The position numbers and the translations under genes were made by a program. Of a stretch of 39,378 nt of DNA, positions 19,827 to 23,483 are shown one piece after another. Within the stretch, counting starts at the first letter, position 1, and every line of letters begins with the position of its first letter. Origin of the DNA: Oligoflexia bacterium (GTDB lineage Bacteria > Bdellovibrionota > UBA1018). Location of the stretch: positions 1 through 39,378 of the forward strand of contig JACMQW010000008.1 of NCBI GenBank assembly GCA_014376785.1, read 5' to 3'. Below the pieces are notes generated by a model. The model was not told the origin of the DNA. It did no database searches and worked only from the letters and a program-made list of their open reading frames with translations.

Positions 19827-20447
19827 ATGAAAATTTTGTCGTGCTTTTTTTTTGGCGTCCTTATTTCCAGTGCGGCAGTTGCGGCACCTTACCATCCCGT
19901 ATCGATCGGCGAATCGAGTGGAGTGAACTTTGAAATCGGATACACGGCGGGTACCCATGAAGGTCATGCTCAAATTTCTGGAACTGTGGATCTGAATCCA
20001 GAAACCCTCGAAATATTTTCTGCATCTTTTTCCGTTCCCGTTAAGTCGATGGATTCTGGAAATGCAAAACGAGATTGTCACATCCGGGAATCCCTCGGAA
20101 TTAATTACATAGGCTCTGTTTATCCTCAGTCCCACGCCTGCAATGGAAAAAACCAATTACCTACTGATGGTCCAAACTCCGTCGCTTATCCCGAAATGAA
20201 GTTCACTTTTGTTACGGTTACGGCCGGCATCGCGAAGGGTTCATTCGAGATGCACGGTGTGAAAAAAGACATCGAAATTCCTTTGAAGCTCACGAAAGAT
20301 GCAGAAGGACGAGTGATGGTAAAATCTGATTTCGACTTGAAGCTGAACGATTACGGCGTCGTGGTAAAACCTTTTTTAGTGATCACGACGGCTGACGTTG
20401 CGACGGTGCATTTGAATTTGTTATTGATTCCGACCCCTCTGCGCTGA
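19827..20447 (+). CDS. YceI-family periplasmic protein (first copy)
   Basis: A 206-residue protein with a signal peptide (core FFFGVLISSAAVA). The mature part shows the YceI lipocalin-like barrel: paired strands around HAQISGTVDLNPETLE, a SVPVKSMDSGNAKRDCHIRESLG helix region, YPEMKFT, the MHGVKKDIEIPLKL signature and a final strand. Cys84 and Cys105 may pair. YceI proteins are known to bind isoprenoid lipids such as quinones or polyprenyl phosphates in a hydrophobic cavity. It opens a cluster with a di-haem lipoprotein, another YceI and a haem-barrel protein, so a quinone or lipid-carrier role in electron transfer is plausible inference. A good ribosome site (AGGGGG) precedes ATG. Confidence 0.85.
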   Translation: MKILSCFFFGVLISSAAVAAPYHPVSIGESSGVNFEIGYTAGTHEGHAQISGTVDLNPETLEIFSASFSVPVKSMDSGNAKRDCHIRESLGINYIGSVYPQSHACNGKNQLPTDGPNSVAYPEMKFTFVTVTAGIAKGSFEMHGVKKDIEIPLKLTKDAEGRVMVKSDFDLKLNDYGVVVKPFLVITTADVATVHLNLLLIPTPLR

Positions 20448-20478
20448 TTTCGGAAAAGACACTTCAGGGAGGACTCGT

Positions 20479-21189
20479 ATGTTTGGGACCTATTTTAATG
20501 TCCGCAGTGCCCAACTGAGTTCTCTGGCGCGTATGCTCCTTGGGGTCGTTTCGGCGGTTGGAATCTCGAGTTGTAATTTCGATTACCAGAAGTCAGGTTC
20601 GGAAGGGACGAAGCTCGGAGGGTCTCTTTCGGAGAATCCAGGCTTTGAAGACATTCGAGCAAACATCCTACAGCCCGCTTGCCTCAGTTGTCATTCGACT
20701 CGAAGCCCTCAGCTGACCAGCTATGAAGCGGTCATCGCAAATCTCGCAGACATCGAATCAGACGTGCTGGTTCGTCACACGATGCCGAAAAAGGGACCGC
20801 TCTCCCAAGAATTGCAAACTCTGCTTGCAACATGGATTCGCAACGGTGCTCCTCAAGCCGGAGCCGTGAGAGTTCCGGACCCGACCCCATCTCCTGCCCC
20901 GGGCTCAATCCCAAGGCCTTTCACTTACTCGGACTTAAAGTCGCGGGTGATGGAACAGAAATGCATCAGCTGTCATTTTGCCGAGAATCCGGACGGGATC
21001 ACTCCTTTCGACACATATCGAAGTTTGATGTCGGTAGAGACCTTTATTGAGCCTCTGGTAATGGGAATTTCAGGAACGGTGGTTACTCCTCCAGAGGACC
21101 GCATGCCTCCGCCGGAAGCGGCCCAACTCACTCAGGATGAAAGGGCATACTTTCTTCTTTGGCTTAACGACGGAAAACTCGAAAAATGA
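20479..21189 (+). CDS. Di-haem c-type cytochrome lipoprotein
   Basis: A 236-residue protein. Residues 1-32 form a lipoprotein signal (GISSC, lipidated Cys32), so it is membrane-tethered in the periplasm or on the outer membrane. Two haem c motifs are present: Cys68-His72 (CLSCH) and Cys162-His166 (CISCH). Each is followed by a likely distal Met (Met102 in HTMPK, Met209 in DRMPPP) and a Trp/aromatic-containing helix (LATWIRNGAP, FLLWLNDGK). The two halves are therefore an internal duplication of a planctomycete-type cytochrome domain, joined by a PTPSPAPGS linker. AGGGAGG precedes ATG. The stop overlaps the start of the second YceI gene (ATGA). Confidence 0.87.
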   Translation: MFGTYFNVRSAQLSSLARMLLGVVSAVGISSCNFDYQKSGSEGTKLGGSLSENPGFEDIRANILQPACLSCHSTRSPQLTSYEAVIANLADIESDVLVRHTMPKKGPLSQELQTLLATWIRNGAPQAGAVRVPDPTPSPAPGSIPRPFTYSDLKSRVMEQKCISCHFAENPDGITPFDTYRSLMSVETFIEPLVMGISGTVVTPPEDRMPPPEAAQLTQDERAYFLLWLNDGKLEK

Positions 21190-21791
21190 TGAACACGCGG
21201 ACGTTTTTTTTGGTTCTGATGAATGTGACTTTCTTAATCTGTAGGGTGAGCGCAGCGGCCGATGCGCCGGTGAGGTTTTTGGCGCTGGGAAAACCTTCCG
21301 CCATTCGGATTCAAGGAACGGCAAAGACGTTGGAGTCCGAAAAACCGGCGTGGAAAGACGGCAAGTTTTCCGGAACTTACCACGTTTTGTTGAATGAGCT
21401 TGAGACCGGTATTTCGATGCGCGATCGGCACATGAAAGAAAAATACCTCGAGGTCGAGAAATTTCCGAAGGCTGATCTGATGCTGTCGGACTGCCCGGTT
21501 AAACTCGGAGAATCGAAGTGCGAAGGGCAGGTGACACTCCATGGGGTCACTCAGAAAGTTCCGCTGAACGTCGCTTGGAGCCGTGGGTCTTCCTCGGACG
21601 AATGGTTAGCCCATAGCCGCTTTATTTTGAAGCTCTCCGAGTTTGGAATTAAGATTCCGACATTCGCGAACATCACGGTGGCCGAAGATGTCACGGTCGA
21701 AGTCGACTCTTCAGTGAAAGAGCCGAAAGCTCTCGTGTCCGACTCGGCGAAAACGCCTTCGAGCCCAACTCAGCCACAGCTGAAAAATTAA
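21186..21791 (+). CDS. YceI-family periplasmic protein (second copy)
   Basis: A 201-residue exported protein (signal peptide core FLVLMNVTFLI, cleavage near VSA-AA). It has the YceI core: a region with GTYHVLLNELETGISMRDRH, the LEVEKFPKADL strand, VTLHGVTQKVPLNV, a close equivalent of the HGV signature in the first copy, and SEFGIKIP. Two cysteines (in SDCPVKL and SKCEGQ) may form a disulfide. The C-terminal 30 residues are a Ser/Pro/Gln-rich tail that the first copy lacks. It is translationally coupled to the di-haem gene. The two YceI copies differ strongly in sequence, so they are not a recent duplication and may bind different ligands. Confidence 0.85.
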   Translation: MMNTRTFFLVLMNVTFLICRVSAAADAPVRFLALGKPSAIRIQGTAKTLESEKPAWKDGKFSGTYHVLLNELETGISMRDRHMKEKYLEVEKFPKADLMLSDCPVKLGESKCEGQVTLHGVTQKVPLNVAWSRGSSSDEWLAHSRFILKLSEFGIKIPTFANITVAEDVTVEVDSSVKEPKALVSDSAKTPSSPTQPQLKN

Positions 21792-21804
21792 GTCGAAAAA
21801 TTTC

Positions 21805-22956
21805 ATGCAGCGATTCCCTCAATCTCTCTTATTCTCCTTCCTAACATCGGCCATACTCTTGATCGCCCCACTTCGCGCAATGGCTTACCCGCCGAACGTT
21901 CGGCACGGATACCCGAGTTGCACGGCTTGTCACATTAACCCCGGTGGCGGCGGAGTTCTCAGTGCTTATGGACGAGAGCTTTCGCGCGAAGTCCAATCCA
22001 CTTTCGGTGGTGAAAAAGAAACCGCCTTTCTTTACGGAAAGGTGCCGATGCCGAGTTGGCTCGATGCGGGTGGAAATTTTCGGTACCTTCAGATCGTCAC
22101 CGATACCGATCAGTCGATTTCCGGAAGAGGCTTTTGGATGCAGGGCGATCTGGAGGGAGCTGCCCACTTAGGTCCTCGGTGGACAGTCGACGCTACGGTC
22201 GGATGGAAAGGAAATGCTGAGGCCCTCGATTCGGATGCGTTGATTCGCAGTCGTCGCCATTTCATCCTTTATTCGCTGACGGACCCTTTCGCCTCAGGCA
22301 CCCAGTGGGCGATCCGCGGCGGGAAATATTTCCCGGTTTATGGCATCATGCCGGCCGAGCATTCGTATCAAACACGAAAAGGAATCGGATTCGATCAAGG
22401 ACAAGAATCCTACAACCTTGAGATCAGTGAGCAGAATGAAAGCGGATCGACTTTTCTTACGCCGATATTTGGTAAAGCGAGAGATCGGAGTGAATCCGAC
22501 GAGCGAGGTCTGGCCGTAACGAGGTATCAGACCGTTGCTGGAAACTCCCGAATCGGAGCCAGTTTGCTTTTCGGTCGAGGAGTAAGACAGAAAACATACG
22601 ATAAACGTTGGACACTCGGTCCGAATTGGATTGTTGCCGCAACCAAGGAAATCTTCTGGGTCGGTGAGTTTGACTACGTTTTCAAATTAAAAGAGGGCTT
22701 GAAGACTCAAAGAGGTTACGTCTTCACCCACAAGCTCACCTATGAACCTCGACAAGGAATCCAAATCTCCCTCCTGCAAGACCTCTCGAAAACAAATGTT
22801 TTAGACCCAAAAACCCTCGCTTGGACAGTAGGGCCGGTGCTTGATTTCTATCCTCGACCGCACTTTGACATTCAGCTCGCGGCGAATCGGGTGATTCTAC
22901 CGGGAAATAATCCAAATTTTTGGGTCTACAGCGGAGTCCTACACTTCTATCCGTAG
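21805..22956 (+). CDS. Haem c-outer-membrane-barrel fusion (Cyc2-like cytochrome-porin)
   Basis: A 383-residue protein. A signal peptide ends near AMA-YP (residue 27). Only about 12 residues later comes one haem c motif, Cys39-His43 (SCTACH), in the context HGYPSCTACHINPGGGGVL, followed by SAYGREL. From about residue 70 to the end the protein alternates polar and hydrophobic strands with aromatic girdles (GGNFRYLQIV, RHFILYSLTD, EFDYVFKLK), ends in VLHFYP, and looks like an outer-membrane barrel. One haem at the N-terminus of a porin is the architecture of Cyc2, the outer-membrane iron oxidase; the motif differs, so this is a related or analogous family. It is the last gene of the redox cluster, 13 bp after the second YceI gene. 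Confidence 0.8.
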   Translation: MQRFPQSLLFSFLTSAILLIAPLRAMAYPPNVRHGYPSCTACHINPGGGGVLSAYGRELSREVQSTFGGEKETAFLYGKVPMPSWLDAGGNFRYLQIVTDTDQSISGRGFWMQGDLEGAAHLGPRWTVDATVGWKGNAEALDSDALIRSRRHFILYSLTDPFASGTQWAIRGGKYFPVYGIMPAEHSYQTRKGIGFDQGQESYNLEISEQNESGSTFLTPIFGKARDRSESDERGLAVTRYQTVAGNSRIGASLLFGRGVRQKTYDKRWTLGPNWIVAATKEIFWVGEFDYVFKLKEGLKTQRGYVFTHKLTYEPRQGIQISLLQDLSKTNVLDPKTLAWTVGPVLDFYPRPHFDIQLAANRVILPGNNPNFWVYSGVLHFYP

Positions 22957-22958
22957 CT

Positions 22959-23483
22959 TCATCGTAACGGGGCAGTGATTTCGAGCCGATTCACATCGAA
23001 GTGTTTTAAACGAGCGCGTTCGATAATCTCATTGTAGCTCGTTTGGTTCATCTCGGGAGTACGAGACAAAATCCAGAGGTACTCCCGCTTTGGTTCACCA
23101 ACGACCGCGAATTCATAATTCTTTCCAAGATCGATGACCCAGTAATCTCCAGCGGGCGCAAACCAGAAGAATTTTACTTTAAGCTTCGCGTTGGTCGTCG
23201 CATCGATCACTCGTGCGGTTGCTTGAATGGATGAAAGATCGCCATTCTTCTTCCTGCATTCATTTCGAACATCGATCGTTCCATCCGCGCGAGCTGAATA
23301 AATGGCTTTAGTATCACTTGCGCAACTCTTCTGAAAAAAAGCGGGAAAATAAGCAATTTGGTACCAGGTCCCGACGTATCGGTTCAGATCGACCTTCGGG
23401 ACGGTCTCCAAAGGCGGGAGGGATGGGGTGGACGAGCAGGCAATGGGGAATAGGCAAAGCGCCAAAGCAAAAACGGATTTCAT
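22959..23483 (-). CDS. blc: Outer-membrane lipocalin (Blc-type)
   Basis: A 174-residue lipoprotein with a signal ending IAC (Cys16). The lipocalin signature YVGTWYQIAYFP (Gly38-Thr-Trp40) is followed by FFQKSC, Y-AR-DGTIDVRNECR, a GDYWVIDLG strand and YLWILSRTP, the order seen in bacterial Blc. Length matches Blc (177). Known members sit on the inner leaflet of the outer membrane and bind lysophospholipids or fatty acids. It is convergent with the haem-barrel gene, only 2 bp between stops, with no obvious terminator, so each may read into the other's 3' end. Confidence 0.92.
   Translation of the reverse strand: MKSVFALALCLFPIACSSTPSLPPLETVPKVDLNRYVGTWYQIAYFPAFFQKSCASDTKAIYSARADGTIDVRNECRKKNGDLSSIQATARVIDATTNAKLKVKFFWFAPAGDYWVIDLGKNYEFAVVGEPKREYLWILSRTPEMNQTSYNEIIERARLKHFDVNRLEITAPLR

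Follow-up and report, generated by a model that had tools for sequence, protein, structure and literature searches.

A predicted monohaem cytochrome-porin encoded with YceI proteins and a haem lipoprotein: a candidate outer-membrane redox module in the Bdellovibrionota

Fused cytochrome-porins, namely Cyc2, Cyt572 and their homologues, are known from metal oxidisers. In the Oligoflexia bacterium studied here, a gene for a protein with one haem-binding motif in front of a predicted barrel (hereafter BAR) follows the genes for two YceI-family proteins and a di-haem lipoprotein. This raises the question whether BAR is another Cyc2 or belongs to a different family, and what such a protein would do in this company. 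The locus was analysed within a stretch of 39,378 nucleotides (the window; contig JACMQW010000008.1, positions 1 to 39,378) and compared with its relatives in the phylum.

Architecture of the locus and of BAR

All four genes that a first-pass annotation of the window had proposed at 19827-22956 (YceI, di-haem lipoprotein, YceI and a CTACH protein) were recovered at these positions (Table 1). Their close and partly overlapping arrangement was also borne out by the coordinates. The start of YceI2 overlaps the end of the lipoprotein gene via an ATGA at 21186 and BAR begins 13 bases after the YceI2 stop, so that the last three genes (lipoprotein, YceI2 and BAR) are read as one operon.

Table 1. 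Positions of the four genes and of selected BAR residues in the window
Feature	Coordinates	Strand	Remarks
YceI-family periplasmic protein 1, 206 aa	19827..20447	+	PF04264 E=1.2e-14, 55.4 bits against a cut-off of 23.7; signal peptide by eye
Di-haem c-type lipoprotein, 236 aa	20479..21189	+	lipobox ISSC; CLSCH and CISCH, MP after each
YceI-family periplasmic protein 2 (YceI2), 201 aa	21186..21791	+	PF04264 E=1.1e-16, 62 bits against a cut-off of 23.7
BAR, 383 aa	21805..22956	+	signal peptide; monohaem module at the N-terminus; outer-membrane barrel of 16(-18) strands predicted
Haem-binding CTACH of BAR, residues 39-43	21919..21933	+	invariant 102/102
Met112 of BAR	22138..22140	+	invariant 102/102; possible distal haem ligand; strand parity looks lipid-facing
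His186 of BAR	22360..22362	+	invariant 102/102; after predicted strand 5; preferred candidate distal haem ligand

Both YceI proteins of the window score above the Pfam cut-off for their family (PF04264), and YceI2 has the PDB relatives 7bwl, 3hpe and 1y0g. In the di-haem lipoprotein, the MP context after the two haem motifs reads HTMPKKG and DRMPPPE; its Pfam matches are sub-threshold only, e.g. Cytochrome_CBB3 with E=0.0015. BAR had no match in Pfam, NCBIfam, PHROGs or the PDB, a PDB profile search included. The Rfam search of the window yielded nothing, the plasmid and viral collections held no match, and promoter and terminator scans did no better than shuffles.

A gene for a Blc-type lipocalin lipoprotein (PF08212, E=5e-46; window 22959-23483, reverse strand) ends two bases from the BAR stop. 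This gene and the flanking PEPCK gene were considered as members of the system and rejected, as neither is a recurrent neighbour and the lipocalin is encoded on the opposite strand.

The signal peptide of BAR ends, by eye, in AMA, and the first cysteine of CTACH is residue 12 of the mature protein, in agreement with the first-pass count of about 12. Across 102 aligned homologues, CXXCH occurs exactly once and at the same position in every sequence, for which reason it is not a chance motif. Invariant in this alignment are Y36, C39, C42, H43, G48, Y55, M112, G173, G180, H186 and G318. Beyond the histidine of CXXCH, M112 and H186 are the only possible haem ligands among them, and both are situated in the predicted barrel, outside the haem module. 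The place of H186 corresponds to that of porin loop L3, the constriction loop of 16-strand porins. M112 is considered the weaker candidate for a distal ligand because of the lipid-facing parity in its predicted strand, and it may not ligate haem.

A barrel fold is likely for BAR, with strand coordinates that are predictions. With 16 strands, a home-made topology score on the BAR alignment reached 40.4, and with 18 strands 44.4; shuffled columns scored no more than 27.2. The same scoring decoded Cyc2-like proteins, published as 16 strands, likewise. Insertions and deletions in BAR are found mostly in predicted turns and loops. Porin_O_P (PF07396), a fold also reported for Cyc2, gave weak matches in eight of 41 BAR members, but the best of these (E=0.0044, 16.7 bits) is below the family cut-off of 20.9, and OprO and OprP are without haem. 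AlphaFold on the single BAR sequence, run with no alignment, was uninformative (pLDDT 33).

The first-pass reading had been made dependent on cytochrome c maturation genes in the genome. For haem-c attachment, the source genome encodes CcsA (identified by PF01578) and ResB (identified by reading the neighbouring frame); it also has one COX1 oxidase. No cytochrome b561 was found by Pfam in the four-gene set. The only PF01292 cytochrome b561 of the genome is encoded on a different contig, and the ORFs of its 3.6-kb locus include no YceI.

Distribution and neighbours of BAR in the phylum

Relatives of BAR were present in 35 of 58 near genomes and, using a profile from 41 sequences, in 231 of the 369 genomes of the phylum (63%). 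Neighbourhoods were compared for 102 BAR copies in 101 loci, all within the phylum, where genes were called by a simple ORF picker that may miss short neighbours. Within four genes of BAR, YceI was found for 87 of the 102 copies, a haem protein for 87, both for 76 and neither for 4. In 40 control stretches from the same contigs, at a distance of 100-200 kb, YceI and the haem lipoprotein were each found once. BAR, YceI and the haem protein therefore constitute a three-part operon that is probably ancient, and the company of YceI and cytochrome genes, on which the first-pass proposal had also been staked, is a regular feature of these barrels.

In 66 copies, YceI immediately precedes BAR in the same orientation, with a median gap of -2.5 nt. 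The distance matrices of BAR and YceI correlate with r=0.76 (permutation maximum 0.13), a value that still includes shared species history. Beside BAR, 92 relatives of the di-haem lipoprotein were counted, 89 of them with a Met motif after each CXXCH; for some BAR copies the lipoprotein is absent or undetected. A quick tree splits BAR into two old clades. The association is probably ancestral, since YceI and haem genes are kept in both clades, with a different gene order.

Several other genes were observed at BAR loci. At 16 loci of the second BAR clade, BAR is followed by a gene for a repeat-like protein, possibly a barrel (L152:6119-7300 and relatives). Proteins of about 195 residues that form a family with no Pfam match (L123:3088-3678 and relatives) are encoded at 16 BAR loci, at most of these ahead of the haem lipoprotein gene and often in the company of copper genes. 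In genome G019, a 560-residue lipoprotein with 21 CXXCH motifs (L042:8108-9790, reverse strand) is encoded convergently to the BAR gene, the only such case among the fetched BARs. When BAR was used as a query against the genome contigs collection, the sole match was a Chloroflexi cytochrome (L004:2776-3366), which has the GGG haem stretch in common with BAR (40% over 43 residues) and whose gene adjoins a molybdopterin oxidoreductase-like gene. The open-access literature yielded no paper on a YceI and cytochrome-porin pairing of this type, and nothing joining Bdellovibrio with YceI or with cytochrome-porins.

Copper genes were located near BAR at 16 of 101 loci and at none of the 40 controls (Fisher p=0.006), and in several relatives the operon is embedded in a copper island. 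The families concerned are a CsoR-type repressor (11 BAR loci), a P-type ATPase (8) and multicopper oxidases (8), with CopC, CopD and Csp (Csp-like protein) at single loci; one counted ATPase, at L050, is not of the heavy-metal type. The link is concentrated in one 14-row clade, with 5 changes on the tree against 11.3 when shuffled, and at least three of the about five changes are forced by well-supported branches. Genomes G268 and G305, from different families, have a 6.8-kb stretch with the operon and an ATPase in common at 83% DNA identity (BAR 93% identical), which suggests that the copper island has moved between families. The 39-kb window itself yielded no copper gene family, and copper may be the substrate or stressor in one clade only.

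Relation to Cyc2 and to other haem and barrel systems

The Fe(II) oxidase Cyc2 is defined by the motifs AXPXFAR[Q/K][T/Y] and PXL around CXXCH, and has a 16-strand porin (PMC8406198). A comparison set was assembled by means of a DNA pattern of the motif, which gave two genes of the phylum, and of their profile, which gave nine distinct proteins with P-x-FAR and PxL. Cyc2-motif cytochrome-porins do exist in the phylum, with profile matches in 23 of 369 genomes (e.g. L166:1426-2715 and L167:370-1614); in the source genome, the profile search found no Cyc2 relative.

BAR resembles Cyc2 in its signal peptide, its single CXXCH near the N-terminus, at about residue 12 of the mature protein, and its predicted porin barrel, and an A-x-P...R...C register is common to both. 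In hhalign comparisons of BAR with Cyc2, the haem module aligned at 92% (E=7.7e-7) and the full length collinearly at 65% (E=5.9e-5), while the barrel alone gave a weak 27%. The defining motifs are nevertheless absent. P.FAR[QK][TY] was matched by none of the 102 BARs and by two of the nine Cyc2-motif proteins, P.FAR by two of the 102 against all nine, and PXL downstream of CXXCH by no BAR against all nine. BAR carries its own signature instead, CHxSPxGGGxLTxYGR. It also differs in the His186 and Met112 of its barrel, whereas the nine Cyc2-motif proteins have no invariant His or Met in theirs, in its operon with YceI and the haem lipoprotein, and in its length of 383 residues, where most Cyc2 have at least 400. 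Because the haem modules align and yet the full motif and PxL are missing from 102 copies, we conclude from these alignments that BAR is distant kin of Cyc2, at least in the haem module, and not a member. The first-pass suggestion of a separate cytochrome-porin family, unlike classical Cyc2, holds with regard to the motifs but overstated the distance.

Haem and barrel are also combined for outer-membrane electron passage in MtrAB, PioAB and MtoAB, in which the decahaem cytochrome is a protein of its own and the barrel has 26 strands. In contrast, a single haem is here fused to a small predicted barrel, BAR having one haem motif and the lipoprotein two. As in BcnA-LcoA, a YceI protein is genetically tied to a haem protein (PMC9113575), but where LcoA is a cytochrome b561 of the inner membrane, the partners here are a monohaem barrel of outer-membrane type and a c-type lipoprotein. 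In the BcnA-LcoA system the YceI-type lipocalin and cytochrome b561 jointly counter lipid peroxyl radicals, and binding of ubiquinone-8 has been reported for a homologue (PMC9113575).

Proposed function and alternative readings

The reading preferred here is that of a conserved outer-membrane redox module, made up of BAR as a monohaem cytochrome-porin, the haem lipoprotein and YceI, and we would give it an even chance. BAR would be a monohaem cytochrome fused to a barrel of about 16 strands. Its haem would form a plug at the N-terminus, fixed by CXXCH and probably also by one of the invariant barrel residues (preferably His186, possibly Met112). Single electrons would pass through it between a small substrate that reaches the lumen of the barrel and the haem lipoprotein anchored in the outer membrane, and the latter would hand electrons to, or take them from, soluble carriers and the respiratory chain. 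At the outer membrane, on its inner face, the YceI proteins would supply or remove a lipid-soluble partner, e.g. a quinone, and in one clade the substrate or stressor would probably be copper. Gene content, conserved synteny, the haem motif, the invariant residues, the resemblance of the haem module to that of Cyc2 and the association with copper islands are observations, while in this scheme we infer the barrel fold, the distal ligand, the direction of electron flow, the role of YceI and the substrate. For the quinone role proposed for YceI, we rely on work in other bacteria (PMC9113575 and papers cited there). A fuller version remains tentative, namely a novel phylum-wide electron-transfer system with a distal ligand supplied by the barrel, a haem lipoprotein and YceI ferrying quinone or lipid across the periplasm, recruited to copper defence in one clade.

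The constancy of YceI and a haem protein as partners of BAR could also point to an antioxidant relay at the outer membrane, similar to that proposed for BcnA-LcoA. In it, a quinol carried by YceI would quench lipid peroxyl radicals; BAR and the haem lipoprotein would regenerate the quinol or dispose of the radicals. BcnA-LcoA provides a precedent for joining YceI to a redox protein (PMC9113575), the genome's sole PF01292 cytochrome b561 is not beside YceI, and the copper islands would fit copper-driven lipid damage. A lipid antioxidant, however, has no need of a haem-fused pore, and BAR keeps its invariant His and Met. In peroxide-reducing haem centres the sixth position is usually free or labile, and we consider the relay rather doubtful. 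Were the operon primarily a copper tolerance device, BAR would oxidise Cu(I) to Cu(II) or gate copper at the outer membrane, with electrons leaving via the haem lipoprotein. The copper markers at BAR loci, absent from the controls, and the operon and ATPase stretch that is 83% identical between families argue for this, as does the fact that Met and His are copper ligands. Yet most BAR loci, the window included, are without a nearby copper gene family, the link is concentrated in one clade and the L050 ATPase should not be counted as a heavy-metal pump, which leaves copper handling as the main purpose unlikely.

A true Cyc2-type Fe(II) oxidase feeding respiration would account for the single N-terminal haem in front of a barrel, the alignment of the haem module and the common register. 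It is very improbable given that neither the full motif nor PxL is found in any BAR while the Cyc2-motif proteins of the same phylum all have P-x-FAR and PxL, that BAR is present in 63% of the phylum's genomes and that the source genome yielded no Cyc2 relative. Hardly any weight is given to a haem-free reading, in which an ordinary outer-membrane barrel uses its CXXCH to bind a metal or to form a disulphide. No Pfam haem family matches BAR and the haem is predicted from its motif, but CXXCH with its histidine is invariant, the protein has an export signal, the genome has haem-c maturation genes, haem lipoproteins are frequent neighbours and the module resembles that of Cyc2.

With the redox module as the preferred reading, BAR represents a Cyc2-related family that is a common component across a phylum in which we know of no iron oxidisers, usually with a haem lipoprotein and YceI. 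For YceI, the operon offers a concrete set of partners for testing its cargo. The invariant His and Met suggest how haem can be fixed within a barrel, and the copper link provides an easy first phenotype. The three-part set looks like a route, so far little known, by which electrons are moved at the outer membrane.
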